Positions 4,189 to 21,651 of a stretch of DNA of 53,419 nucleotides are shown here, piece after piece; the stretch's first letter is position 1, and every line of letters begins with the position of its first letter. The translations under genes were made by a program, and so were the position numbers. The stretch is from JAWOFN01 sp046497505 [NCBI: bacterium]. GTDB lineage: Bacteria; Blakebacterota; Blakebacteria; Blakebacterales. The stretch lies in the NCBI GenBank assembly GCA_046497505.1, contig JAWOFN010000116.1, positions 1 to 53,419 on the forward strand, in the 5' to 3' direction. The notes below the pieces were generated by a model. It did no database searches. It saw only the letters and a list, made by a program, of their open reading frames with translations, and had not been told where the DNA came from.

Positions 4189-4641
4189 ATGAATCAGGGA
4201 TCCGACCGCCGGCCTGAGACCGGTGGCCCAGAAGACTGTCACGGCAGAGACCGCATCCGGGGTATCGTGCGCCCCTGGCTCCTGCTCCTCCTCCGCGGGG
4301 GACCCGCCCACGGCTATCGGCTCCTCAAGCAGCTCGAGATGCTCTCTCCCGCACCCGATGCGGACCCCGCCTTCCTCTACCGGACCCTGCACCGCTTCGA
4401 GCGAGAGGGACTGGTCCGCTCCGCCTGGCGGGCCGGAGGATCGGGGCCGGACCGCCGCGTCTATCACCTCACAGCCGAAGGGGCCGGGGCGCTGGATCGG
4501 TGGGCCGTTCGGATCCGCAGGAGGCGGGTCATGATGGACCGTTTCCTCGAGACCTACGCAGCCCGGCCGTCGGAGAGGACGGGCGAGGACCTTCAGGACA
4601 CGGGGGACGCAAGGGACGCGGACCGTGGAGGGGGCGGATGA
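4189..4641 (+). CDS. PadR-family transcriptional regulator
   Basis: This is a 150-residue protein with the PadR winged helix: VRPWLLLLLRGGPAHGYRLLKQ, DPAFLYRTLHRFEREGLV and the wing DRRVYHLTAEG, followed by a C-terminal helix for dimerisation (about residues 98-130). The ATG at 4189 was chosen because it lies downstream of the likely promoter; an upstream in-frame ATG at 4051 would start before it. A weak GGGAAG lies 9 bases upstream. It is the first gene of the efflux operon and overlaps the next gene by ATGA (4638-4641), so the two are translationally coupled. It probably represses the promoter at 4124-4152 and lets go when an efflux substrate binds; the ligand is unknown. Confidence 0.88.
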   Translation: MNQGSDRRPETGGPEDCHGRDRIRGIVRPWLLLLLRGGPAHGYRLLKQLEMLSPAPDADPAFLYRTLHRFEREGLVRSAWRAGGSGPDRRVYHLTAEGAGALDRWAVRIRRRRVMMDRFLETYAARPSERTGEDLQDTGDARDADRGGGG

Positions 4642-5129
4642 AGGAGCCGGCCATCGAGGTCGAGGGACTGGTACGCCGCTTCGGCGAGAAGACGGCGGTC
4701 GATGGCATCGACTTCCAGGTGGGCGCCGGTGAGGTCTTCGGGTTCCTCGGACCCAACGGCGCGGGCAAGAGTACCACCCAGCGCATCCTCTCCACCCTCC
4801 TGTTCCCTTCCGGAGGGAAGGCCAGGATCTTCGGCCGCGACGTGGTCCGGGAAGCGGGAGCCGTGCGCCGGCGGATCGGACGCGTCCCGGAGGAATCCAG
4901 CGTATACCCCGAACTCACCGGCCTGCAGAACCTCACGTTCACCGCCAGGCTCTACCGCGTCCCCGGCGGCGAGCGGGAGCGGAGGACCCGGGACCTCTTC
5001 GACCAGGCTCTGATGGGTACCTCCTTCCTCCCGCCCCTCCTCGATCTTGCGGCCCTGCCGCTCCTGTTCGTCCTCTTCCTGGTGCCGGCGGGCATGCTCC
5101 ACCGGCGGGGAAGGAGGATCGGGGTCTGA
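4638..5129 (+). pseudogene. ABC ATPase N-terminus fused to ABC-2 permease C-terminus by deletion
   Basis: The 163-residue frame begins as a DrrA/CcmA-type ABC ATPase: EVEGLVRRFGEKTAVDG, Walker A GPNGAGKST near residue 37, and a Q-loop region IGRVPEES with Glu at the usual Gln position. After DLFDQ (about residue 123, base 5006) it changes to LMGTSFLPPLLDLAALPLLFVLFLVPAGMLHRRGRR, the last membrane helix and basic tail of an ABC-2 permease. The signature LSGG, Walker B and H-loop of the ATPase and most of the permease are missing, so it cannot work as an ABC transporter. The frame stays open across the junction, as after an in-frame deletion of two adjacent genes or a collapse in assembly. It overlaps padR by ATGA. 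Confidence 0.8.
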
Positions 5130-9648: not shown

Positions 9649-10868
9649 GACTGCTCCGGGGCCTGCGTATCTCAGCACGGCAGATCGGTACCCACCGTAC
9701 CCGGACCGCGCTCGCGCTGCTGGGCATCGTGATCGGCGTCTCCTCGGTGATCGCGATGGTCGCCGTGGGATACGGGGCCCGGCAGGAGGTCATGGAGCGC
9801 GTCGAGGCCATGGGCACGAACCTGATCATGGTCACCCCCGCCCAGGTCCGCACCTCCACCGGGCGGACCCAGGTCCGGGGGACGGTCACGACCCTCACGC
9901 CGCAGGATGCCGAGGCCCTGGTCACCGAACTCCCGCAGATCACGGCCGCGGCCCCATGGGTGAGTCGCCGGCTGCCGGTGAAGTACGGTGGGCTCTCCTC
10001 CACCACGAACATCCAGGGCATCACGCCGGCGGTCCTCGACATACTCCGCGTATCGACGGCCGCGGGCGCCTTCTATACCGAGCGCGAGGAGCTTACCGGA
10101 GGGCGCACCGCCGTGCTGGGGCCCGCCGTGGCGAAGACCCTCTTCGGAGACGGACCGGCGGTCGGCCGCCGGGTGCTGATCGGACAGGTCCCCTTCGAGG
10201 TGGTGGGTGTCCTCACCCCGCGGGGATCCGATCTCTCGGGTACCGACCAGGACGACATGGTCATGGTCCCGCTCACGACCGCGCTCCGCAGACTCTTCAA
10301 CCAGCAGTGGCTCGGCGGGATCTACCTGAAGGCCCGGGACCGGTCGGTGATGGCCGAGGCGGCCGAACAGGTGGGGTGGCTGCTCCGGGAGCGTCACCGT
10401 CTCGACCGGACGGGACGACCCGACGACTTCGAGGTGCAGACCCAGCTCGAACTCATGGAGGCCCACCGCGAGATCGGCGACACCTTCACCACCCTGGTGG
10501 GAGGGATCGCCGCGGTATCCCTGCTCGTGGGCGGGGTGGGGATCCTGGCCATCATGCTCATGTCGGTGAAGGAGCGCACCCGGGAGATCGGCCTGCGGCT
10601 GGCCGTGGGGGCCCGGCGGCGGGATGTCCGGATGCAGTTCCTGGGGGAGGCGGTCATGCTGGGCACCGGCGGCGGGCTGGCCGGTGTCCTGGCGGGCCTG
10701 GCGGTCGCTGCCGCGGTAGGGACCTTCACCGACTGGGCTGTGCGGGTGGAACCGCTCTCGGTAGGGCTCTCCTTCGGGTTCTCCCTGCTCGTGGGCGTCT
10801 TCTTCGGGGTCTATCCGGCCCACCGCGCCTCGCTGCTCGACCCGGTGGAATCCCTCCGGAGCGAGTGA
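9645..10868 (+). CDS. MacB/FtsX-type ABC permease 2
   Basis: This 407-residue paralogue of the preceding permease starts with GTG at 9645 inside a GTGA overlap. It has the first helix (RTRTALALLGIVIGVSSVIAMVAV), a MacB_PCD periplasmic domain with GITPAVLDILRV and VPFEVVGVLTPRG, and C-terminal helices with LVGGVGILAIMLMSVKERTREIGLRLAVGARRRDV. The sequence is closer to the MacB consensus than permease 1. Two different permeases with one ATPase suggest a heterodimeric transmembrane unit. It is the last gene of the operon; a 56-base gap without a clear terminator separates it from the convergent amidotransferase gene. Confidence 0.94.
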   Translation: MRLLRGLRISARQIGTHRTRTALALLGIVIGVSSVIAMVAVGYGARQEVMERVEAMGTNLIMVTPAQVRTSTGRTQVRGTVTTLTPQDAEALVTELPQITAAAPWVSRRLPVKYGGLSSTTNIQGITPAVLDILRVSTAAGAFYTEREELTGGRTAVLGPAVAKTLFGDGPAVGRRVLIGQVPFEVVGVLTPRGSDLSGTDQDDMVMVPLTTALRRLFNQQWLGGIYLKARDRSVMAEAAEQVGWLLRERHRLDRTGRPDDFEVQTQLELMEAHREIGDTFTTLVGGIAAVSLLVGGVGILAIMLMSVKERTREIGLRLAVGARRRDVRMQFLGEAVMLGTGGGLAGVLAGLAVAAAVGTFTDWAVRVEPLSVGLSFGFSLLVGVFFGVYPAHRASLLDPVESLRSE

Positions 10869-10924
10869 TACGGCCGTCCGGGAGTACGGTCACGCACCGA
10901 GAGCACCGGGTCCCAGGAATCGGC

Positions 10925-11629
10925 TCACGGAGCAATCCCCTCCACTTCTTCGAGGAAGTTGTCCATGAAGCGCCTGGCGAGCCCTGTCATCGTCCCCTCC
11001 CGTTCGCGGCATTCTTCCATCACCTGGTCTGCAGTCTTTCCCACACGCTCCAATTCCTCGACATACTCCACCGTCCAGCGGCGGGCCATAGGGACCGTGA
11101 CCTCCAGGTGGAACTGCACGCCGATCAGACGGCCGTGCCGGAACATCTGATCCCGGCAGGCATACCCTTCCACCAGCAACTCGGCCCCGGAGGGCACATC
11201 GAAGGTATCCCCGTGCCAGTGGAAGACCGGGAAGCGGTCGGGGAAGCCCGCCAGCAGGGGATCCTCCGCTCCCCGCTGCGTGCGGAGGACCTCGTAACCC
11301 CCGATCTCCATGACCGGGCTGCGCGACACCTCCGCTCCCAGCACCGAGGCGAGCAGCTGCGCTCCGAAACAGATCCCGAGGGTGGGAAGATCCGCGCGCG
11401 CACGCCGCTCCAGGTAATCCCGCTCCCTCACCAGGAAGGGATGGACCCCGCAGTCGCGTACGCATATCGGTGTGCCGCCCACGACGACCAGCTCGTATTC
11501 GCCGGGATCCGGCAGCGGCTGGTCCTGGTAGGTGTGCACCGTGTCGAACTCGATGGCCTGCTCGAACAGGCAGCGCTCGTAGCGTCCCAACCCCTCGACC
11601 GGGGAGTTCTGGATGATGAGTACACGCAT
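10925..11629 (-). CDS. class I glutamine amidotransferase (GMP synthase-like GATase)
   Basis: This 234-residue single-domain GATase has the nucleophile elbow GICFGAQL with Cys87 and the dyad GVQFHLEV with His174 and Glu176, so the glutaminase triad is complete. The N-terminus MRVLIIQNSPVEGLGRYE and the HWHGDTFDVPSG segment are typical of stand-alone 'GMP synthase-glutamine amidotransferase' proteins, which lack the synthase domain. The synthase partner or the acceptor is not encoded nearby. The start ATG at 11629 follows GGGAG. The gene lies downstream of arsC on the same strand, separated by 174 bases that hold a transposase scrap. Confidence 0.9.
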   Translation of the reverse strand: MRVLIIQNSPVEGLGRYERCLFEQAIEFDTVHTYQDQPLPDPGEYELVVVGGTPICVRDCGVHPFLVRERDYLERRARADLPTLGICFGAQLLASVLGAEVSRSPVMEIGGYEVLRTQRGAEDPLLAGFPDRFPVFHWHGDTFDVPSGAELLVEGYACRDQMFRHGRLIGVQFHLEVTVPMARRWTVEYVEELERVGKTADQVMEECREREGTMTGLARRFMDNFLEEVEGIAP

Positions 11630-11659
11630 GCGCTCTCCCTTCGGCTGCTGGACACGGGA

Positions 11660-11767
11660 CCCGGGGGCGCGGCGCCCACGCCCGCAGCCCGGACACAGCA
11701 GCGGGTCTTCCAGCCATACCTGCCGGATGAGGCGGGTCCCCCGGATCCGAATGCGCCGATGGTATCG
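11660..11767 (-). pseudogene. possible transposase C-terminal remnant
   Basis: Read on the minus strand, one frame gives RYHRRIRIRG, TRLIRQVWLEDPLLCPGCGR, then breaks up into Arg/Gly-rich sequence. The pattern W/TxLIRxVxxxDPLxCPxCG, a zinc-knuckle at the end of a helix, is common at the C-terminal end of transposases of the IS91-like and related groups. There is no start, catalytic domain or terminal repeat, so only a scrap would remain. The identification rests on about 20 residues. Confidence 0.35.
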
Positions 11768-11803
11768 GGTCCCGGGACCCCTCCGGAGCGGCTGTACGGG
11801 ACC

Positions 11804-12223
11804 TCAGGCGTGTTCGCCCAGCTCCCACAGCAGGGAGACCACCCGCCCGCGGATGTCGTCCCGGCTGGCCCGGAAGACGGCCATGATCTCCTCCTCGGTG
11901 CCTCCGGCCTTCGCGGGGTCGGTCAGGGGCCAGTGGATCTTGCGGGTCCCCGGTGGCAGGACCGGGCAGTGCTCGTCGGCATGACCGCAGACCGTCACCA
12001 CCAGGTCGGCCCACTCCAGCATCTCATCGGTGAGCGTGGTGGACTCCTGTCCCGAGATGTCGAGGCCCGCCTCGGCCATGACCGCGATGGCCCGGGGATT
12101 CTTGCCGTGGGCCTCGGTCCCGGCGGATCGAACCTCGAGCCCGTCACGCGCGAGGGCTCGGGTGAACCCCTCGCACATCTGGGATCGGCAGGAGTTCCCG
12201 GTACAGAGATAGAGGATCTTCAC
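11804..12223 (-). CDS. arsC: arsenate reductase, thioredoxin-coupled LMW-phosphatase type
   Basis: The enzyme reduces arsenate to arsenite. This 139-residue protein has the P-loop CTGNSCRSQ (Cys7, Cys12) and the redox pair VCGHADEHCPVLPPG (Cys79, Cys86), spaced 7 apart as Cys82/Cys89 are in the plasmid pI258 enzyme; the HWPLTDPA segment also matches. Thus it should use thioredoxin and not glutaredoxin. The GTG start at 12223 was chosen because family members begin just before the KILYLCTGN strand and GGAGTGAG precedes it. It starts 4 bases after the phoU stop, so it is the last gene of the phosphate operon, which ties arsenate reduction to the transporter that lets arsenate in. Confidence 0.94.
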   Translation of the reverse strand: MKILYLCTGNSCRSQMCEGFTRALARDGLEVRSAGTEAHGKNPRAIAVMAEAGLDISGQESTTLTDEMLEWADLVVTVCGHADEHCPVLPPGTRKIHWPLTDPAKAGGTEEEIMAVFRASRDDIRGRVVSLLWELGEHA

Positions 12224-12227
12224 GCGC

Positions 12228-12896
12228 TCACTCCGCTTCCTCGATGCCGCCGTGCCGGATGATCTCGCCCTCGACCAGGAAGACCACATCCTCCGCGATG
12301 TTGGTGGCGTGGTCGGCCACCCGCTCCAGGGCCCTGCTGATGGAAATCACGTGGGTGGCCCGGTCGACGCTCTCCGGGTCCTCTTTCATCAGGGCCCGCA
12401 TGATCCGGTAGACCTCCCGGTGCAGGTCATCCACCTCGTCGTCCAGCTCGCAGACCCTGCGGGCCTTCGGAACGTCCTGGTTCACCAGGGAATCCAGGCT
12501 CTCCCGGACCATGAGACGGACCGTCTCGGCCATCTGGCTCAGGTCGTAGGGCACGGGCTCCTCGCTCAGGCGCGCCATGTCGAGGGTCCGCTCGGCGATG
12601 TTCTCGGCCAAATCGCCCACGCGCTCCAGGTCGTTGTTCACCATGATCACGGCGATCACGTAGCGCAGGTCCACCGCCACCGGCTGATGGAGGGCCAGCA
12701 CCTTCAGAGCCTCTTCGCTGATCTCCAGCTCCTTGGTGTTGATGGCTTCCTCGCCGTCCAGCACCTCGCGGGCCAGGTCGGCGTCCCGGTTCATCACGGC
12801 GTTGATGGACTTGTCCAGGGCCTCTTCCACCATGCCGCCCATGGTGAGGATCTCGCGCTTCAGGTTGTCCAGGTCCCGCATCAGATGCAGGCTCAT
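12228..12896 (-). CDS. phoU: phosphate signalling protein PhoU
   Basis: This 222-residue protein is made of two three-helix PhoU repeats. The acidic, metal-binding helices carry the DxxxE/EExxN pattern: LDGEEAINTKELEISEEAL in repeat 1 and CELDDEVDDLHREVYRIM in repeat 2. Repeat 1 also has VMVNNDLERVGDLAENIAE and repeat 2 has SRALERVADHATNIAEDVV, the two hallmark PhoU segments. The protein normally inhibits Pst transport and the PhoR kinase when phosphate is plentiful. It starts 61 bases after pstB, with GGGAAGAAG upstream of the ATG at 12896. The histidine kinase and response regulator are not in this window. Confidence 0.96.
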   Translation of the reverse strand: MSLHLMRDLDNLKREILTMGGMVEEALDKSINAVMNRDADLAREVLDGEEAINTKELEISEEALKVLALHQPVAVDLRYVIAVIMVNNDLERVGDLAENIAERTLDMARLSEEPVPYDLSQMAETVRLMVRESLDSLVNQDVPKARRVCELDDEVDDLHREVYRIMRALMKEDPESVDRATHVISISRALERVADHATNIAEDVVFLVEGEIIRHGGIEEAE

Positions 12897-12957
12897 AGGT
12901 TCTTCTTCCCTTTGCTCTGGAGGGTTTCCGCCTCTCGGTCGGCGGGCGAGGTCGGCA

Positions 12958-13824
12958 TCACCCGAACCGCCCGGTCACATAGTCCTCGGTCTGCTTCTCC
13001 CGGGGCCGTGTGAAGAGCTGCTCGGTATCGCCGTACTCGATGAGGTAGCCCTCATAGAGGAAAGCGGTGCGGTCCGAGACCCGGGCGGCCTGCTGCATGT
13101 TGTGGGTCACGATGATGATCGTGTAGCTGCCTCTCAGCTCGCCGATGAGGTTCTCGATGCTGGCCGTGGACTTGGGATCCAGCGCCGAGGTGGGCTCGTC
13201 CATGAGGAGGATGTCCGGGTCCACCGCCAGGGCCCGGGCCAGGCAGAGCCTTTGCTGCTGACCGCCCGAGAGCCCAAGCGCGTTGTCCTCCAGCCGGTCT
13301 TTCACCTCGTCCCAGAGGGCCGACTTGACCAGGCTCTCCTCAACGAGCTGGTCCAGCTTGTTCCTGTTCTTCACGCCATGGATCCGCGGCCCGTACGCGA
13401 CGTTGTCGAAGATGCTCTTCGGGAAGGGGTTCGGCTTCTGGAAGACCATCCCCACCCGCTTGCGCAGCTCCACGACATCCACATCCTCGCTGTGGATGTC
13501 CTGGTCATCGAAGCAGAGGCCGCCCTTCGTATGGGCGATCGGGATCAGGTCGTTCATCCGGTTGATCGCCCGCAGGAAGGTGCTCTTCCCGCAGCCGCTG
13601 GGCCCGATGATGGCCGTCACCTGGCCCTTCGGGATGTCGAGACTCACATCGCAGACCGCCGCGTTGTCGCCGTAATAGACCCAGAAGTCCTCGGAACGGA
13701 CGTGTATCTCTCCCGCTCCCACTTCTTCCCATTCGGCGTCGGGGACCTGGATGTCGAAGGCATGACCCCGCTCCTCGGAGACTGCCGGTGCCCGGGGGTC
13801 GCGCTGGTTCGCGTGGGAGATCAT
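12958..13824 (-). CDS. pstB: phosphate ABC transporter ATPase PstB
   Basis: This 288-residue ATPase energises phosphate import. It has Walker [10 protein letters not shown] (Lys80), the PstB-typical [14 protein letters not shown]-loop [20 protein letters not shown], signature [15 protein letters not shown], Walker [13 protein letters not shown] and H-loop [18 protein letters not shown]. The ATG at 13824 was chosen because AAGGGG lies 8 bases upstream and only 4 bases separate it from the pstA stop. A 40-residue acidic N-terminal extension before the FWVYYGD strand is somewhat longer than in the E. coli protein. Confidence 0.97.
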
Positions 13825-13828
13825 CGAC

Positions 13829-15175
13829 TTACCCCTTGAGTTTCTTGCCGATACGGGCACGGAGGATGATAGCGGCCATGTTCAGGGTCAGCACAAGGGC
13901 GACGAGCGTGGCCACCATGCCGAACTGTACGTGCCGGAGCTGGTCCACCGCTTCGTGTTCGGTGGCCATGTTGTAGATGTTCCAGGGCAGTGCCGGGGTG
14001 GGTTCGTTCAGCGTGTCCAGGATGCCCAGGGGCTGTCCCACGCTCACCGCCGCGGTGAAGATGATGGGAGCGGTCTCGCCCGCTGCCCGGCCCATGCTGA
14101 TCACGATGCCGGTGAGGATACCCGGCAGTGCGGCGGGGAGCACCACGGTGAGGACAGTATGCCATTTCCCTGCACCCAGACCGAGCGCCGCCTCCTTGTA
14201 AGCGATGGGCACGGCCAGGATCGCCTCCTCGGAGGCCCGGATCACCACCGGCATGATCAGCAGCCCCAGGGTCAGGGACCCGGCCAGCACGCTCTTGCTG
14301 GCTGAGACCCCCACCCCGTTGATGAAGAAGGCCAGGCCGAACAGACCGAAGACGATGCTGGGCACGCCGGCCAGGGTGTTGATGCTGGTGCGGATGATGC
14401 TGATGATCCGTCCCTGATGGGCGTACTCGGTGAGGTAGATGGCCGAGATCACACCCATGGGGATGGCGAAGAGCAGCGCTCCCAGGGTCAGGTAGATGGT
14501 CCCCAGCACCTCCGGCCAGATCCCACCGAAGAAGTGGGCATCCTCCGAGGTATCGAAGAGGAAGCGCCAGTAGAACTTGAACCGTGGGTGCAACATGGAC
14601 CGCATGTTCTCTTCCACGTAGGGAAAGAGGGCGGCCAGGCTGGTCCCCTCGAAGTCCTGCACCCGGGGGCGGTAGACCTTCGTCCCCATGGCGTCCGGGT
14701 CCGAGTAGTCCCACTCCTCGATGAACATCACATCGTACAGGACCTCCTGAGCCCGGTCCCAGCGTGTCTCCCCGTACCGGTCCCGTATCAGCGCCGGCTC
14801 CCGGTCATCGGGCAAGGGACCCAGCAGTTCCCTCAGGTGGTCCTTGAGCTCGTCCAGCTTCCGGCCGTACTCCATGCTGGCCATGAAGCCCATGGTGTCC
14901 ATCTCGGCCTCGAACCGATCGATCATGTCGTAGACGGGCTGCCGCGCCTCGGCGACCTCGGCAGCCTCGGCGGCGATCTCCTCCCGGTCCCCCCGCTCGA
15001 AGACATCCAGGATCATCTCCCGGTGCTCGGTGGTGGCCCGGAAGAAGTACGCCTTCGCCCCCCGTATCATCATGGGTGCCAGGATGACGATGAGGGAGAG
15101 GGCCAGCAGCAGGACCGAGACCACGCCAAGGCCCGAGAAGGAGCGGTTGAGGATCTTGCGTGTGCTCCGTTCCAC
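13829..15175 (-). CDS. pstA: phosphate ABC transporter permease PstA with large N-terminal periplasmic insert
   Basis: The C-terminal 230 residues are a normal Pst[55 protein letters not shown], and the EAA-type loop [27 protein letters not shown]. The whole protein has 448 residues, about 150 more than E. coli PstA. The extra part lies between helix 1 ([22 protein letters not shown]) and helix 2, at about residues 45-205, and should be periplasmic. It is strongly charged and largely helical ([36 protein letters not shown]), then [20 protein letters not shown]. It starts 4 bases after pstC. Longer PstA forms exist in other bacteria; the role of the insert is unknown. Confidence 0.93.
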
Positions 15176-15179
15176 GGCC

Positions 15180-16343
15180 TCAGCTCCCCGCGTCCTTCAG
15201 GCGCCGTGTGATACGTTCGCTGACGAGGTTCATCACGAAGGAGATGGTGAGCAGGGAGAGGGCCATGGCGAACAGCACCGCGTATCGGGCAGAGCCGGTA
15301 ACGTGATCTGCCTCCCCCATGTCTCCGGCGATCGTGGCGGTCAGGGTCCGGACCGGTTCCAGGTAGTTGTAGATGGGCTCGGGGATCTGGGCGGCGTTCC
15401 CCGAAGCCATCCACACCACCATCGTCTCGCCGATGGCCCGCATCACGCCCAGGATGACCGCCGCCACGATGCCGCTGGCCGCAGCAGGGACCACGACGCG
15501 GAGCATGGTCTCCGCCTTCGTCGCCCCCAGGGCATAGCTGCCCTCTCTGAGGTCCCTTCCTACCGCCTGCAGGGCGTCCTCGCTCACGCTGACCACGGTG
15601 GGTACCGCCATGATGCCCAGGATGATGCTCACGTTCAGGGCGTTCGTACCGCTGTCGATCCTGATCCCGCTCACGGCCTGCAGGAGCAGGTAGAGCAGCA
15701 TTCCCAGCGCTCCGGCCGTCACCAGCCCCACTCCGAGCCCCACACCCGGCCTGCGCTGCTGCTGTTCATCTGCGGCCGATCGCACGGCCGCGATATCCCC
15801 AGCCACGTAGGCCAGCAGCAGGGCCACCGGCGCCAGAGCCAGTCCCAGGGCCAGCGCGATGACCGCCCCGCCCTGCTGCTGGAGCAGCGGGGCGAACACC
15901 ACCAGGGCGAAGAAACCGTAGGCCACCGAGGGGATGGCGGCCAGGATCTCGATGATGGGCTTGAAGACCTGCCGGAGCCGGAAGGGGAGCACGTCGCTCA
16001 AGGCGATGGCGGCGGTGATCCCCAGGGGGACCGCCACCACGATGGCCCCGAAGGTCACCAGTGCCGAACCCACGAAGATGGCCAGGGTCCCGAACCGGGG
16101 CGGGCTCCCCGCGGGGAACCAGGCGGTGCTGGTGAAGAACTCCGAGAAGCTGCGGAGCTGGAAGAAGGGGATCGCGTCCTTCGCGATGAAATAGAAGATG
16201 AAGAACACCGCGAAGAGGGAACTGCTTGTGACCAGGAGCAGCAGGCCCCTGCCGAGAAGAGAGCCGAGCCGGCGGGACCGGCTGGCTCTCTTGCTCAGTA
16301 CGAGGCTGCCCCTCGACGTGAGGCTCTCAGCGGCCTGGGACAT
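15180..16343 (-). CDS. pstC: phosphate ABC transporter permease PstC
   Basis: This 387-residue inner-membrane permease pairs with PstA. Its helix 1 is LLGRGLLLLVTSSSLFAVFFIF, followed by the PstC-like PFFQLRSFSEFFTSTAWFP and the EAA-type loop EGSYALGATKAETMLRVVVPAAASG. Between the PSVAYGFFALVVFAPLL segment and the NALNVSIILGIMAVPT segment there is an insertion of about 60 residues. It has two additional hydrophobic stretches (ALGLALAPVALLLAYVAG and LGVGLVTAGALGMLLYLLLQ) and a Gln/Arg-rich linker. The ATG at 16343 lies 25 bases after the pstS stop. Confidence 0.93.
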   Translation of the reverse strand: MSQAAESLTSRGSLVLSKRASRSRRLGSLLGRGLLLLVTSSSLFAVFFIFYFIAKDAIPFFQLRSFSEFFTSTAWFPAGSPPRFGTLAIFVGSALVTFGAIVVAVPLGITAAIALSDVLPFRLRQVFKPIIEILAAIPSVAYGFFALVVFAPLLQQQGGAVIALALGLALAPVALLLAYVAGDIAAVRSAADEQQQRRPGVGLGVGLVTAGALGMLLYLLLQAVSGIRIDSGTNALNVSIILGIMAVPTVVSVSEDALQAVGRDLREGSYALGATKAETMLRVVVPAAASGIVAAVILGVMRAIGETMVVWMASGNAAQIPEPIYNYLEPVRTLTATIAGDMGEADHVTGSARYAVLFAMALSLLTISFVMNLVSERITRRLKDAGS

Positions 16344-16368
16344 GCCTTCGTCCGTTCCTCCGGTCAGA

Positions 16369-17220
16369 TCAGTTGCCGTAGGAGGTCACGGGCACGAACC
16401 CGATGCCCTCGATGATCCGCTGACCCTCTTCGGTCAGGTAGTAGGTGACGAACTGGTAGAGGTGCGAACCCATCTTCGGGTAGCCGTCCGTGAACATGAA
16501 AAGGGGACGGGCGATGGGATAGGTGCCCGTGGTCACGGTCTTGGCGCTGGGGTAGATCCCCTCGATCTCCAGGGCCTTGACCGAACGGTCCACGAAGCCC
16601 AGACCGGCGTAGCCGATGGCGTTCGGGGTGGACTGGACCCGCTGGCGCACCGCGCCGTTGGAGCCCACGTATTCCACGCCGCCGCCCATGTTGTCGCCGC
16701 CCATGACCAGCTTCTCGAAGGTCTCATAGGTGCCGCTGTTCGTATCCCGGCTCACCACCACGATGGACCGGTCGGGGCCGCCGACCTGGTTCCAGCTGGT
16801 GATCTCGCCCGTGTAGATGTCGTGGACCTGCTGGAGGGTCAGGCCCTTGACCGGGTTGCTGGGGTGGACCAGCACCGGAAGACCGTCCAGGGCCACCACG
16901 TGGGCCACCGGCATGATGCCGTTGTCCGCCGCGGCCTTGAACTCGGTCGGCTTCATGAAGCGGCTCATATCGGCGATGTGGCAGGCGTCGTTGATCAGGC
17001 TCTTGGCGCCGTTGCCGCTGCCCGACTCGCTGACGGTGATGTTCACGCCGGGGTTGGCCCTCATGTACGCTTCGGCGAAGGCCTTGGCGATGGGACCGAC
17101 GGTGGTGGAGCCGTCGATCACGATCCTCGTGTCCGACTGGGCGTTCGTGTTGGTCGGAGCCATCATCAGTCCGACCGCCACGAACATCCCGATCAGGGCT
17201 GTCGCAGTGATTCGCTTCAC
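16369..17220 (-). CDS. pstS: periplasmic phosphate-binding protein PstS
   Basis: This 283-residue binding protein delivers phosphate to PstCA. I chose the GTG at 17220 because GGAGGA stands 7 bases upstream; an in-frame ATG 15 bases earlier overlaps that site. Residues 1-28 are a signal peptide (VKRITATALIGMFVAVGLMM... ending TNTNAQ). The phosphate loops are IVIDGSTTVGP, ESGSGNGAKSLINDACHIADMSR and SRDTNSGTYETFEKLV. It is the first gene of pstSCAB-phoU-arsC. Upstream, the minus strand has one CTGTCAC (17326-17332), which resembles half a Pho box, but no second half at the usual 11-base distance, so PhoB control is not shown by the sequence. Confidence 0.95.
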   Translation of the reverse strand: MKRITATALIGMFVAVGLMMAPTNTNAQSDTRIVIDGSTTVGPIAKAFAEAYMRANPGVNITVSESGSGNGAKSLINDACHIADMSRFMKPTEFKAAADNGIMPVAHVVALDGLPVLVHPSNPVKGLTLQQVHDIYTGEITSWNQVGGPDRSIVVVSRDTNSGTYETFEKLVMGGDNMGGGVEYVGSNGAVRQRVQSTPNAIGYAGLGFVDRSVKALEIEGIYPSAKTVTTGTYPIARPLFMFTDGYPKMGSHLYQFVTYYLTEEGQRIIEGIGFVPVTSYGN

Positions 17221-17461
17221 GGATCTGTCCTCCATGGGGTAGGGCACAGTGCCTCTCTTGAGATGTACTGCGAACTTGCTGTCCGTCGTTCGTGGGGAAG
17301 AGTAGGGTCCGAATGTGGCGGCTCTGTGACAGGAACGAAACAACTGCGGATTCGAACTTTCCGGAGCCCCGGGCGTATAGCAGATTCCACGGGGGCGGCG
17401 CTGATGGCCCGCCCCGGGGATCCCCCCGAAGACTACCCGTTGAGATGGAGCTGAGGCAGCG

Positions 17462-18163
17462 ATGTTCTTCTTCGACTGGACGATGATCCTCATCATCCCG
17501 GCCTTCCTGCTCGCCCTGTGGGCCCAGGGCAAGGTGAAGTCCACGTATGCCAAGTACAGCCAGGTGCGGTCCGATGCCGGCATGCCGGGGGCCGAGGTGG
17601 CCCGCTCCATCCTGGACCGGAACGGCCTCCATGATGTGGATGTCGAAGAGGTCCAGGGGGAGCTGAGCGACCACTACGACCCGAAGAGCAAGACGGTCCG
17701 ACTCTCCACCGGCAACTACCGGAACGCCTCACTGGCCGGACTGGCCGTCGCGGCCCACGAGTGCGGTCACGCTATCCAGCACGCCCGTTCCTACGCGCCC
17801 CTGGCTTTCCGCACCGCCTTCTTCCCGGCAGCGAGCCTGGGGAGCAGTTTGGCCATCCCGCTCTTCTTCATCGGCTTCCTCTTCTCGGCCGGGGGGTCCG
17901 GGGGGCTCACGATCCTGATGGATATCGGAATCCTCTTCTTCGCCGCAGCGGTGCTCTTCCACATGGTGACCCTGCCGGTGGAGTTCGACGCGAGCAAACG
18001 GGCGCTCGCGCTGCTGGGCAGCACCGGCTGTCTGAGCAAGCAGGAGGTGGGCGGGGCCCGCAAGGTCCTCAACGCCGCCGCCTGGACCTACGTGGCCGCC
18101 GCGAGCATGGCGGTGCTGCAGCTCGTCCGGCTCCTGGTGCTTCGCGGCGCCGTGAGCGACTGA
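17462..18163 (+). CDS. membrane zinc metallopeptidase, YugP family
   Basis: This 233-residue protein of the neutral zinc metallopeptidase family (Pfam Zn_peptidase_2) has an N-terminal helix (FDWTMILIIPAFLLALWAQ), a short soluble part, then the zinc site AAHECGHAIQHA with His99, Glu100 and His103. Three further hydrophobic segments follow (SLGSSLAIPLFFIGFLF, LTILMDIGILFFAAAVLFHM, WTYVAAASMAVLQLVRLLV), and VEFDASKRALALL is conserved. The active site should face the cytoplasm or lie within the membrane. The substrate is unknown in general. It is divergent from pstS with a 240-base spacer and is followed by an intrinsic terminator, so it is probably transcribed alone. Confidence 0.9.
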   Translation: MFFFDWTMILIIPAFLLALWAQGKVKSTYAKYSQVRSDAGMPGAEVARSILDRNGLHDVDVEEVQGELSDHYDPKSKTVRLSTGNYRNASLAGLAVAAHECGHAIQHARSYAPLAFRTAFFPAASLGSSLAIPLFFIGFLFSAGGSGGLTILMDIGILFFAAAVLFHMVTLPVEFDASKRALALLGSTGCLSKQEVGGARKVLNAAAWTYVAAASMAVLQLVRLLVLRGAVSD

Positions 18164-18207
18164 CAGACATCGGACGGCCGATCCCTCCTGCGGGTGGGAT
18201 CGCCTGC

Positions 18208-18239
18208 AAGGCGCGGGAGGCAGCTTCCGCGCCTTTTTT
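18208..18239 (+). terminator. intrinsic terminator
   Basis: AAGGCGCGG (18208-18216) pairs perfectly with CCGCGCCTT (18227-18235) across a 10-base loop and runs into six T (18234-18239). This ends the metallopeptidase transcript and insulates the arsR operon. Confidence 0.9.
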
Positions 18240-18304
18240 CTGTTGCTTATGATTCGTTGATTTGCTAAATGACAAAACAAGAAGACGACGGAAGGGAGTC
18301 TGCG
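18240..18304 (+). promoter_or_regulatory. AT-rich arsR promoter/operator region
   Basis: Between the terminator and the arsR start is a short stretch much richer in A and T than its surroundings. It contains TTGCTT (18243-18248) and TAAATG (18266-18271) with 17 bases between them, a weak sigma-70 fit. The repeated GATT/GTTGATTTG words could hold the ArsR operator, but I see no clean palindrome. The assignment rests on position and composition. Confidence 0.4.
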
Positions 18305-18652
18305 ATGTGCCTGCATGATGCAGCGGCCCTGTTCGGGGCCCTGGGCAGCGAGAACCGCCTGCGCATCCTGAAGATGCTCCAGGTGCGGTCTCTCTGCGTA
18401 TGCGAGATCACCGAGGTCCTGGGACTCTCCGCACCCACCGTGTCCCGGCATCTCAGCCTGCTGCGGGAAGCCGGTCTCATCACCGACCGGAGGGACGGGC
18501 GCTTCGTGACCTATGAGCTGGAGGTCTCGGGCGGGCCCCTGGCCGAAGGGGCCGCCGACCTGCTCCGCTCCTGGGGTGCGGAGGACCCTACCGTGCAGCA
18601 GGATGCCGAGCGAGCGGGAAGCGTCGACCGCGAGTTTCTCTGCAGCACCTGA
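18305..18652 (+). CDS. arsR: ArsR-family arsenite-responsive repressor
   Basis: This 115-residue winged-helix repressor has ALFGALGSENRLRILKMLQ, then SLCVCEITEVLG, the recognition helix SAPTVSRHLSLLREAGLI and the wing DRRDGRFVTYEL. Cys31 and Cys33 in CVCE at the start of the DNA-binding helix are the As(III)/Sb(III) ligands of classical ArsR, so arsenite should release it from DNA. The ATG at 18305 was chosen because GGGAG lies 6 bases upstream; an in-frame ATG at 18269 has no ribosome site and falls in the AT-rich promoter region. It leads the operon with the ArsP-like permease, the mini-thioredoxin and Acr3. Confidence 0.92.
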   Translation: MCLHDAAALFGALGSENRLRILKMLQVRSLCVCEITEVLGLSAPTVSRHLSLLREAGLITDRRDGRFVTYELEVSGGPLAEGAADLLRSWGAEDPTVQQDAERAGSVDREFLCST

Positions 18653-18706
18653 GCAGACGCTGGGGCCAGGGTCGGAAGATCCGGCATCGCGGCAACGGAG
18701 TGAAGG

Positions 18707-20008
18707 ATGGACCTCAAAAGAGAATACCGACCGCTGCTCTGGATGACAGGACTCTTCCTGGCGGCTTACTTCCTGCCTGTGGACGACGCGGCTTTCCTGG
18801 GAGCGATACGGGACGCCCTCGACCTGACCCGCTGGTACGCCCGGGAGCATGTCATCCTCTGCCTGCTCCCCGCCTTCTTCATCGCCGGGACCATCGCGGT
18901 CTTCATCAGCAAGGAAGCGGTGATCCGCTACCTGGGACCCGCCGCTCCGAAGTGGGTCGCCTACCTGACCGCATCGGTCTCCGGCTCGGTCCTGGCCGTC
19001 TGCTCCTGCACCGTACTCCCCCTCTTCGCAGGTATCCGTCAGCGGGGCGCGGGGCTGGGACCCGCCGCCACCTTCCTCTACGCCGGTCCGGCCATCAACG
19101 TGCTGGCCATCATCCTCACCGCGCAGGTGCTGGGACTGGAGCTGGGGCTGGCCCGGGTGGCGGGGGCGATCGTCTTCAGCATCCTCATCGGTCTGATCAT
19201 GCACGCACTCTACCGCAGCGAGGAGATGGAGCGGGCCGCGCAGCAGCTGCAGCACGGAGAGGAGGATGGGCCGAAGCCTCTCTGGAAGACCTCCCTGCAC
19301 TTCCTGGCGCTGGTCGCCATCCTGGTGTTCGCCAACTGGGGCGACCCGGGTCCCGATGCCGGGCTGCTGGGCAGCATCTACGAGCTGAAGTGGATGCTCA
19401 CCGGGCTCTCTGCCGTCATCCTGGCCGTGAGCCTGGTGGTCTCGCTCAGGTTGGAACCCCGCTGGGTGGCCCTATGGGCGGGGATCAGTGCGGGCGGGGC
19501 CTTCCTCTTCCACGCTCACCCTCAGCTCCCCTTCGCCATCTCGGTCATCGCCCTGAGCGTGATCCTCTACATCAGCCCGGGGGAGCCCCGGGAATGGCTC
19601 GCCGAGACGTGGGGCTTCACGAAGCTGATCCTGCCCCTGCTGGCGGCCGGCGTGCTGGTCGCCGGCTTCCTCCTGGGTTCCCCCGGCGGCGGTGGCGGGA
19701 TCGTGCCGGACGCCTGGATCGCAGGGCTGGTGGGGGGCGAATCGCTGCGGGCCAACCTGGTGGCTTCGATGGCCGGCGCCTTCATGTACTTCGCCACACT
19801 CACCGAGATACCGATCCTGCAGGGCCTGCTGGCCGGGGGTATGGGGGACGGACCCTCCCTCGCCCTGCTGCTGGCCGGGCCCGCTGTGAGCCTGCCCAAC
19901 ATGCTGGTCATCCGGGGTGTGATCGGCACCCGGAAGACCGTCGTCTTCATCGCCCTGGTCGTGGTCATGGCCACGATCAGCGGACTCATCTACGGATCCA
20001 TCACCTGA
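18707..20008 (+). CDS. arsP: permease, ArsP (DUF318/ArtP_2) family
   Basis: This 433-residue inner-membrane protein of about ten helices carries the family signature VCSCTVLPLFAGIRQRGAG at residues about 101-119, with the two Cys of CSC, and its echo in the second half, SMAGAFMYFATLTEIPILQGLL. ArsP proteins export trivalent organoarsenicals such as methylarsenite; other members of the family have no known substrate. A long loop with RSEEMERAAQQLQHGEED separates the halves. The start ATG at 18707 follows GGAGTGAAGG. It sits 54 bases after arsR and 16 bases before the thioredoxin-like gene, which supports an arsenic-related role. Confidence 0.88.
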   Translation: MDLKREYRPLLWMTGLFLAAYFLPVDDAAFLGAIRDALDLTRWYAREHVILCLLPAFFIAGTIAVFISKEAVIRYLGPAAPKWVAYLTASVSGSVLAVCSCTVLPLFAGIRQRGAGLGPAATFLYAGPAINVLAIILTAQVLGLELGLARVAGAIVFSILIGLIMHALYRSEEMERAAQQLQHGEEDGPKPLWKTSLHFLALVAILVFANWGDPGPDAGLLGSIYELKWMLTGLSAVILAVSLVVSLRLEPRWVALWAGISAGGAFLFHAHPQLPFAISVIALSVILYISPGEPREWLAETWGFTKLILPLLAAGVLVAGFLLGSPGGGGGIVPDAWIAGLVGGESLRANLVASMAGAFMYFATLTEIPILQGLLAGGMGDGPSLALLLAGPAVSLPNMLVIRGVIGTRKTVVFIALVVVMATISGLIYGSIT

Positions 20009-20024
20009 GAAGGAGGATGCACCG

Positions 20025-20279
20025 ATGATCAAGATCCAGGTCGTGGGAGCGGGATGTGCGAACTGCAGGAAGCTCGAGGAGGTCTGCCGCCAGGTCGTGG
20101 CGGAGAACGCCGTGGAGGCCGAAGTGGAGAAGGTCACCGACATCAGCCGCTTCGCCGACCTGGGCATCATGGTCACGCCGGGGCTGGTCATCGACGGCGA
20201 GGTGAAGGCCTCCGGCAAGGTGCCGCAGAAGGAACAGATCTCCACGTGGGTGATGAACGCCGCCGCCGCCGCCCGCTGA
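20025..20279 (+). CDS. small thioredoxin-like redox protein (MTH895 type)
   Basis: This 84-residue thioredoxin-fold protein has the active site GAGCANCRKLE (Cys11, Cys14), the cis-Pro loop MVTPGLVIDGEV and the KVPQKEQISTWV end. The CANC motif and the missing N-terminal strand are typical of 'redox-active disulfide protein 2', which is very often encoded directly behind ArsP-type permeases. It could reduce the permease Cys pair or serve ArsC; both are inferences. GAAGGAGG precedes the ATG. Confidence 0.9.
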   Translation: MIKIQVVGAGCANCRKLEEVCRQVVAENAVEAEVEKVTDISRFADLGIMVTPGLVIDGEVKASGKVPQKEQISTWVMNAAAAAR

Positions 20280-20353
20280 ACGCCGTCGCGACCCGGTGCT
20301 GAGGCAGCGGACCGGGAGACGAAAACAGAGTACGACACGACCGGGAGGGCGTA

Positions 20354-21436
20354 TTGAACACCCCATCCGTGAGCCGCAGGCTGAGCCTGCTGGACCGCTA
20401 TCTGACCCTCTGGATCTTCCTCGGCATGGGACTGGGTGTGGCGGCGGGGTGGATCTTCCCCGCCATCTCCGGCTTCTGGGACACCTTCCGGGTGGGGACC
20501 ACCAACATCCCCATCGCGGTGGGCCTGGTCCTCATGATGTACCCTCCCCTGGCGAAAGTGCGCTACGAGGAGCTGGGCGAGGTCTTCCGGAACTGGCGGA
20601 TCCTGGGCCTCTCCCTGGTCCAGAACTGGGTGGTCGGCCCGATCCTCATGTTCGCCCTGGCCCTCCTCTTCCTCAGGGGGTACCCGGAGTACATGACCGG
20701 GCTGATCCTCATCGGGCTGGCACGGTGCATCGCCATGGTCATCGTCTGGAACGAGCTGGCCGACGGGGACACCGAGTACGCGGCCGGGCTGGTGGCCTTC
20801 AACAGCGTCTTCCAGGTGCTCTTCTACAGTGTGTATGCCTGGTTCTTCATCACCCTGCTCCCTCCCCTGTTCGGACTGGAGGGGAGCGTGGTGCGGATCA
20901 GCATGGGACAGATCGCTGAGAGTGTGGGGATCTACCTGGGCATCCCCTTCGCGGCGGGCATCCTCACCCGGTTCGGACTCATCCGGGCGAGGGGGAAGGA
21001 ATGGTACGAGGGACGCTTCATCCCCCGGATCAGCCCCATCACGCTGATCGCCCTGCTCTTCACGATCTTCGTGATGTTCAGCCTCAAGGGGGAGCAGATC
21101 GTCGGGATCCCCCTGGACGTGCTCCGCATCGCCGCACCCCTGCTCATCTACTTCGTACTCATGTTCCTGGTGAGCTTCTACATGGGACGGAAAGTGGGGG
21201 CGGACTACTCGAAGACCGCGACCCTCTCCTTCACCGCGGCCAGCAACAACTTCGAACTGGCCATCGCGGTGGCGGTCGCGGTGTTCGGGATCGATTCCGG
21301 GGCCGCCTTCGCCGCGGTGATCGGCCCCCTGGTGGAGGTCCCCGTCCTTATCAGCCTGGTGAACCTCTCCCTCTACTTCCAGCAAAGGTACTTCGGGAGT
21401 GCGACCGATGCGGGTACGGAGGCGGCCCGGGGATAG
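20354..21436 (+). CDS. acr3: arsenite efflux transporter Acr3
   Basis: This 360-residue ten-helix carrier of the ACR3/BART superfamily exports arsenite using the proton gradient. It has [43 protein letters not shown], the essential Cys125 in [20 protein letters not shown], and [21 protein letters not shown]. The start is TTG at 20354, supported by GGGAGG at 20343-20348 and by the Acr3 N-terminus right behind it; no ATG fits. It lies 74 bases after the thioredoxin-like gene and is the last gene of the ars operon. There is no arsC in this operon; the reductase is in the pst operon on the other strand. Confidence 0.96.
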
Positions 21437-21651
21437 ACCCGAGAGACCGAGCGGCAGCAACCCCGGTCCTTCTGTCTTCGGCACCGCCCCGCGCTCCCTT
21501 CCGTGCGCACAAGGTGCTGGCACGGGCGCCGCCCCGGCCGCTACCTTGGGAGGGTTCCAAGAACGCGCCCGCCGGATCCGGGGGCCGGATCCCACCCACC
21601 GGACCGGTACCGACGGCCGATGATGTCCCGATTCCTTCAAGGGGACCGAAT
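21437..21651 (+). other. intergenic region with two hairpins, between acr3 and the M3 peptidase gene
   Basis: These 215 bases contain no gene. GGATCCGG (21574-21581), 3 bases, CCGGATCC (21585-21592) is a perfect 8-bp stem without a T tract. It could end the ars transcript with a Rho-type mechanism or lie in the peptidase leader. Upstream, CTTGG...CCAAG is a weaker stem. TACCTT (21542-21547) could be a -10 box for the peptidase, but no convincing -35 accompanies it. Confidence 0.4.

Follow-up and report, generated by a model that had tools for sequence, protein, structure and literature searches.

In operons of the pst-phoU-phoBR type the genes follow the order pstSCAB-phoU plus phoB-phoR, and in the classic arsR-arsC-exporter operons the arsenate reductase (ArsC of the S. 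aureus pI258 / B. subtilis type) is encoded together with its repressor and its exporter. Here we describe a run of genes, pstS-pstC-pstA-pstB-phoU-arsC, located in a 53,419-nt stretch of contig JAWOFN010000116.1 (positions 1 to 53,419, assembly GCA_046497505.1; this whole stretch is what we call the window, the numbering is that of the forward strand, and further copies of arsC or pst may exist elsewhere in the genome). Compared with the classic arsenic operons the enzyme belongs to the same family and both ACR3 and ArsR are present, but the reductase gene is found in a separate operon that appears to be Pho-linked. Compared with the phosphate operons, the order pstSCAB-phoU is maintained and genes similar to phoB-phoR are found in relatives, but arsC is inserted after phoU.

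The closest systems described so far link arsenic and phosphate genes at the level of neighboring operons. In the arsenic islands that carry pst, phn, aio and ars operons, genes for arsenic and for phosphate uptake likewise adjoin and a functional coupling has been proposed; as far as the consulted parts of that paper go, the pst and ars operons there neighbor the arsenite oxidase genes, whereas in the window arsC is inside the pst-phoU run (PMC3834237). Agrobacterium tumefaciens 5A also has a pst operon near an ars operon (pho/pst1-ars1), with cross-regulation between them, but in the consulted sections pst1 is under the control of ArsR1 and arsenite, while the Pho-box-like element of the window points to phosphate and the reductase gene belongs to the pst run (PMC7965956). 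In Nodularia spumigena an ars cluster with SphX likewise brings together phosphate-uptake and arsenic genes; in the portion of the source consulted, the phosphate-binding gene is part of an arsR-ACR3 cluster that apparently lacks a true ArsC, in contrast to an arsC within a full pst operon (PMC3610870). No arsC inside a pst-phoU operon appears in the consulted parts of these and related papers (PMC3834237, PMC6505155, PMC7965956, PMC6620896, PMC6413627, PMC5111396, PMC3610870), and no description of one was found in the literature searched, most subscription journals being outside that search. What seems new here is the presence of the detoxifying enzyme within the phosphate operon itself.

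The six genes are all on the minus strand and each is backed by family models (Table 1). The gaps between them, going from pstS to arsC, are 25, 4, 4, 61, and 4 nt. At the last junction GCGC separates the phoU stop codon TGA from the GTG start of arsC, with a GGAG 7 nt upstream of this start. The first-pass annotation had placed the start of arsC 4 bases after phoU, and this is borne out (GTG at 12223, phoU stop at 12228); its minus-strand pst genes also stand, but pstS starts at 17235 and not at 17220. The phoU-arsC linkage is real and conserved in one lineage. On gene order and spacing, arsC is a predicted structural member of the pst-phoU operon, and its placement suggests an arsenate defense tied to phosphate starvation. 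We think it probable that arsC belongs to the Pho operon and is carried on a PhoB-activated transcript, with feed-forward export of arsenite. Several lines of evidence point in this direction: the mostly 4-nt gaps, without any promoter-like or minus-strand terminator-like site inside the operon; the retention of pstB-phoU-arsC followed by a response regulator and a histidine kinase gene in the related genomes G014 (locus L102) and G004 (locus L103); the Pho-box-like element at pstS in the window and L102; the invariant residues C7, C79, C86, R13, and D102 of ArsC; and the separation of reductase and exporter, repeated in G014.

The nearest relative was identified by a comparison of LigA across 12 genomes or records, in which G004 (the genome of locus L031) reached 66%, nine others 50–56% and two gave no match. 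The phylum of G004 comprises four genomes, any of which may be incomplete. A strong ArsC (E < 1e-50) was present in three of the four (G004 with two copies, G014 and G016) and a strong PhoU (E < 1e-70) in two (G004 and G014), while none was found in G016. In both genomes with a strong PhoU, phoU and arsC are adjacent. The order in L102 is pstS-pstC-pstA-pstB-phoU-arsC-response regulator-histidine kinase; the L103 contig begins within pstA and continues as pstB-phoU-arsC-response regulator-histidine kinase. In the two loci the phoU stop and the arsC start overlap by 4 nt, and their PhoUs are only 55–57% identical to that of the window. The recurrence of the junction in two related genomes makes chance an unlikely origin for it. 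A survey for pst-phoU-arsC linkage, as proposed in the first-pass annotation, thus finds it conserved in both PhoU-bearing genomes, though confined to one small phylum. The response regulators encoded after arsC have PhoB as their best NCBIfam model (TIGR02154, 234.5 and 237.7 bits, cut-off 296.2), and the histidine kinases resemble PnpS/PhoR.

Other arsC genes of this phylum are found in different surroundings. The second arsC of G004 (L105; L031 denotes the same gene) is located on a contig of 13,574 nt without any pst match, and that of G016 (L104:1845-5856) is between genes for a heavy-metal P-type ATPase and a GAF-SpoIIE phosphatase. A porin-like gene is convergent behind the Pho-operon kinase gene in both relatives (L102:3118-4194, Porin_4; L103:4889-6010), and a similar one (Porin_4, Porin_O_P; L105:12374-13453) is next to the second, unlinked arsC of G004.

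Upstream of pstS we found a Pho-box-like triple heptad, scored against the Pho-box heptad consensus as generally known, at 79 nt from the gene in the window and 97 nt in L102. In 5000 shuffles each of the respective upstream region, the window score of 16/21 was reached twice and the L102 score of 19/21 never. The element together with the TACTCTTC block behind it makes up the best ungapped 47-nt match between the two upstream regions (17343-17297 in the window), with 34 of the 47 bases shared, more than in the best of 1000 shuffle pairs (29).

The arsC product resembles arsenate reductases of the thioredoxin type and retains the catalytic cysteines. It matches PF01451 (71.9 bits, cut-off 23.2) and the pI258-type ArsC model TIGR02691, the latter with 172.2 bits, 2.1 below the curated cut-off of 174.3, which is passed by its counterparts in L102 (174.9) and L103 (179.9). 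It aligns to the B. subtilis ArsC (PDB 1jl3), and its best matches among solved structures are arsenate reductases. Seven aligned ArsCs share without exception C7 and R13 of the P-loop C-x5-R, the redox pair C79 and C86, and D102, whose roles we take to be those in the pI258/B. subtilis enzymes.

The exporter is encoded apart from the reductase. The first-pass annotation had located it in a separate ArsR operon, about 6 kb away and without arsC, and gene calls and family models agree with this: the plus-strand operon arsR-ArsP-Thioredoxin_3-ACR3 (18269-21436) contains no arsC. The CVC motif of its ArsR presumably binds arsenite. A 12-pair terminator-like hairpin (18208-18235) separates arsR from a zinc peptidase gene. 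No arsenite oxidase was detected among those window proteins that were run against Pfam or NCBIfam, a subset of the open reading frames. Judged from the gene calls, the physical split of reductase and exporter, also part of the first-pass annotation, recurs in G014, where the ArsC of the Pho operon is the only strong one (a second match is weak, 3e-7) and ACR3 is on another contig (TIGR00832, 374.9 bits, cut-off 282.8), next to a DeoR-type regulator gene and with no ArsC or ArsR match at E <= 1e-3 in the surrounding 14,954 nt. G004 gave no match to the window ACR3. As an observation in its own right, the ArsP_1-family permease and the tiny Thioredoxin_3 protein form a pair between arsR and ACR3 (18707-20279).

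Table 1. Genes and candidate regulatory elements of the pst-phoU-arsC and ars regions of the window.
Feature	Position	Strand	Evidence
pstS, phosphate-binding protein	16369..17235	-	TIGR02136, 293.6 bits; start from translation
pstC, phosphate permease	15180..16343	-	TIGR02138, 253.3 bits
pstA, phosphate permease, long N-terminal region	13829..15175	-	TIGR00974, 268.6 bits, residues 192-442 of 448
pstB, phosphate ABC ATPase	12958..13824	-	TIGR00972, 408.2 bits; ATG at 13824, 4 nt past pstA stop
phoU	12228..12896	-	TIGR02135, 211.8 bits, cut-off 130.25
arsC, putative thioredoxin-type arsenate reductase	11804..12223	-	GTG start at 12223, 4 nt past phoU stop; TIGR02691
Pho-box-like triple heptad TTGTTTC-N4-CTGTCAC-N4-CCGCCAC, upstream of pstS	17315..17343	-	16/21 consensus positions
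Candidate -10 hexamer TACTCT, conserved in L102	17299..17304	-	Within shared 47-nt block
arsR, ArsR/SmtB repressor, CVC motif	18269..18652	+	NF033788, 89.9 bits, cut-off 55
ArsP_1-family permease	18707..20008	+	PF03773, 243.7 bits
Small Thioredoxin_3 protein	20025..20279	+	PF13192, 93.5 bits
ACR3 arsenite exporter	20354..21436	+	TIGR00832, 454.7 bits, cut-off 282.8

The arrangement suggests the following mechanism. When phosphate is scarce, or when competing arsenate makes the cell sense starvation, PhoB would activate pstS and the transcript initiated there would take arsC along. Arsenate leaking in by Pst or Pit could then be reduced at once by ArsC and thioredoxin, and the arsenite produced would be the ligand that releases ArsR, in such a way that ACR3, and perhaps the ArsP-type permease, would be induced only once arsenate had entered. 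In this way low phosphate would announce arsenate in advance, with export following by feed-forward. Competition of arsenate for uptake via PstSCAB has been described, going by the consulted part of the source (PMC3610870). The first-pass annotation considered Pst the main unintended entrance of arsenate, a view that finds little support in the consulted sections of two papers, where Pit does not discriminate against arsenate and Pst is the more selective system (PMC6413627, PMC6620896). Pst would rather be switched on when arsenate crowds out phosphate, with ArsC handling the residual leak.

A broader proposal, which we advance tentatively and with the balance leaning somewhat against it, is that in this poorly known lineage the arsenate reductase is a core component of a phosphate-starvation sensing operon, pst-phoU-arsC-phoB-phoR. 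The same transcript would serve to clear arsenate and to build the phosphate sensor, low phosphate would be a standing arsenate alarm with feed-forward arsenite export, and ArsC might also guard sensing by Pst, PhoU and PhoR from arsenate. If arsC is indeed a member of the Pho operon, arsenate reduction should track phosphate and export should track arsenite, which bears on the survival of cells in low-phosphate, arsenate-bearing water. Since the reductase can be located in a phosphate operon, a lack of arsC in the ars operon does not by itself imply a lack of arsenate reduction, and in metagenomic counts of ars genes the absence of arsC from the ars operon should be read with care.

We extended the survey beyond the phylum of G004. 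In the phylum of G010, 398 genomes were searched, 44 of them had a match above the TIGR02691 cut-off, and the neighborhoods of the 57 best matches (E <= 8.9e-34; that of G010 itself is L001) were tested. The 24 genomes of the phylum of G003 gave 12 ArsC matches at E <= 1e-25, all of which were tested. The loci with names of their own are the best 80 of 468 candidates and are biased to genes close to the window ArsC. The total of 151 arsC genes corresponds to 148 distinct ones, 132 of them with at least 700 nt upstream; one (L031) belongs to G004, which leaves 147 outside its phylum. Other layouts associate arsC with pst genes. In L007 and L190 the order is pst genes-phoU-arsR-arsC-acr3, with the same direction and pst before arsC as in the window, but with arsR between phoU and arsC and the exporter included. 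A PstS-like gene adjoins arsC in L058, L181 and L183, and in L016, L023, L037, L055, L070 and L080 pst genes or phoU are found farther from arsC. Locus L048 comes from a genome (G001) recorded as Nitrospira sp., but the sweep of its phylum returned the same genomes as that for the Gammaproteobacterium G010, and the name or the bin may be wrong.

Several observations weigh against arsC being carried on a PhoB-activated transcript. A sigma-70 scan found no promoter-like site anywhere in 10700-21600, the interior of the arsC operon included, and a scan that is silent across the whole region leaves room for an internal arsC promoter. In the window no phoB-phoR follows arsC, and the regulators and kinases of L102 and L103 are below the curated cut-offs for PhoB, PnpS and PhoR. 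When the window was shuffled in its entirety, a Pho-box score of 16 was again reached in 8 of 20 cases, so the weight of the site comes from its place and its conservation alone. Outside the phylum of G004, none of the 147 distinct arsC genes sampled directly follows phoU. The window ArsC is closer to Gammaproteobacterial ArsCs (77% identity to some of them) than to its positional counterparts (60 and 65% to those of L102 and L103), and ArsC trees do not show the three as one clade; a single clade for the three Pho-operon ArsCs was not rejected (p 0.385, 40 rows). The arrangement may go back to one ancient insertion followed by differing rates, to a replacement of the gene in place, or to two separate insertions at the same site.

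The first-pass annotation also called arsC the last gene of the operon, and this is not supported. The scan of 10700-21600 gave three terminator-like sites (shuffle average 3.2), all on the plus strand and none on the minus strand, and a glutamine amidotransferase gene (10925-11629) is found on the same strand 174 nt behind arsC. Without a minus-strand terminator-like site this gene could share the arsC transcript, and arsC may not be the last gene.

The same wide survey is what speaks for a mere neighbor effect, in which arsC landed behind phoU once in the lineage and is read through incidentally, with no regulatory meaning. Besides the lack of direct junctions among those 147 genes, a joined PhoU and ArsC query found no place covering 80% of its length, and hence spanning both genes, in 1,055 matching plasmid records, and among the named loci (best 80 of 468) ACR3 is on the same strand within 1.5 kb of arsC in 68 of 80, with arsR as well in 56. 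The zero counts in the arsC survey and in the plasmid records make the strict junction look lineage-specific within the searched set, while a general association of arsC with pst looks recurrent. We consider a neighbor effect unlikely, given that the junction has been retained between PhoUs as divergent as those of the window and its relatives, with 4-nt overlaps in both of the latter, that arsC is flanked there by phoU on one side and by the phoB-like and phoR-like genes on the other, and that arsC-pst neighborhoods arise in other layouts (L007, L190, L058, L181, L183).

The operon could alternatively be an arsenic-responsive pst1 as in A. tumefaciens 5A, repressed by ArsR, so that arsenite would induce pst, phoU, and arsC whatever the phosphate. 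In the consulted part of the work on that strain the nearby pho/pst1 genes have ArsR1 as their repressor and As(III) as their inducer (PMC7965956), and the window arsR is about 1 kb beyond the start of pstS. We hold this to be quite unlikely: no inverted repeat was found upstream of pstS, where the conserved element is Pho-box-like instead, the candidate site for ArsR in front of its own gene (18257-18275) has no convincing counterpart at pstS or within phoU (best 10/19), and there is no ArsR match on the pst contig of L102, which extends only some 500 nt beyond the start of pstS. That the ArsC-like protein is a low-molecular-weight phosphatase of Pho signaling, acting for example on PhoB or PhoR, seems very improbable. 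Its fold family is indeed that of the low-molecular-weight phosphotyrosine phosphatases (PF01451), and in the relatives its gene directly precedes the phoB-like and phoR-like genes, but arsenate reductases provide both the best solved matches and the top-scoring NCBIfam models, and C79 and C86 are invariant. Redox cysteines of this type are required in arsenate reduction and dispensable in phosphatase action.

Some minor features of the window can be added. PstA, with 448 residues, has about 190 extra N-terminal residues outside the TIGR00974 match (192-442), and the L102 PstA matches part of this extension too, from residue 76 on. A scan of viral contigs with PstA found no relative. An open reading frame at 4500-5129 opens with a match to positions 2-87 of a 137-position ABC ATPase profile and continues as a hydrophobic tail atypical of these proteins; on visual inspection it resembles what an internal deletion would leave behind.

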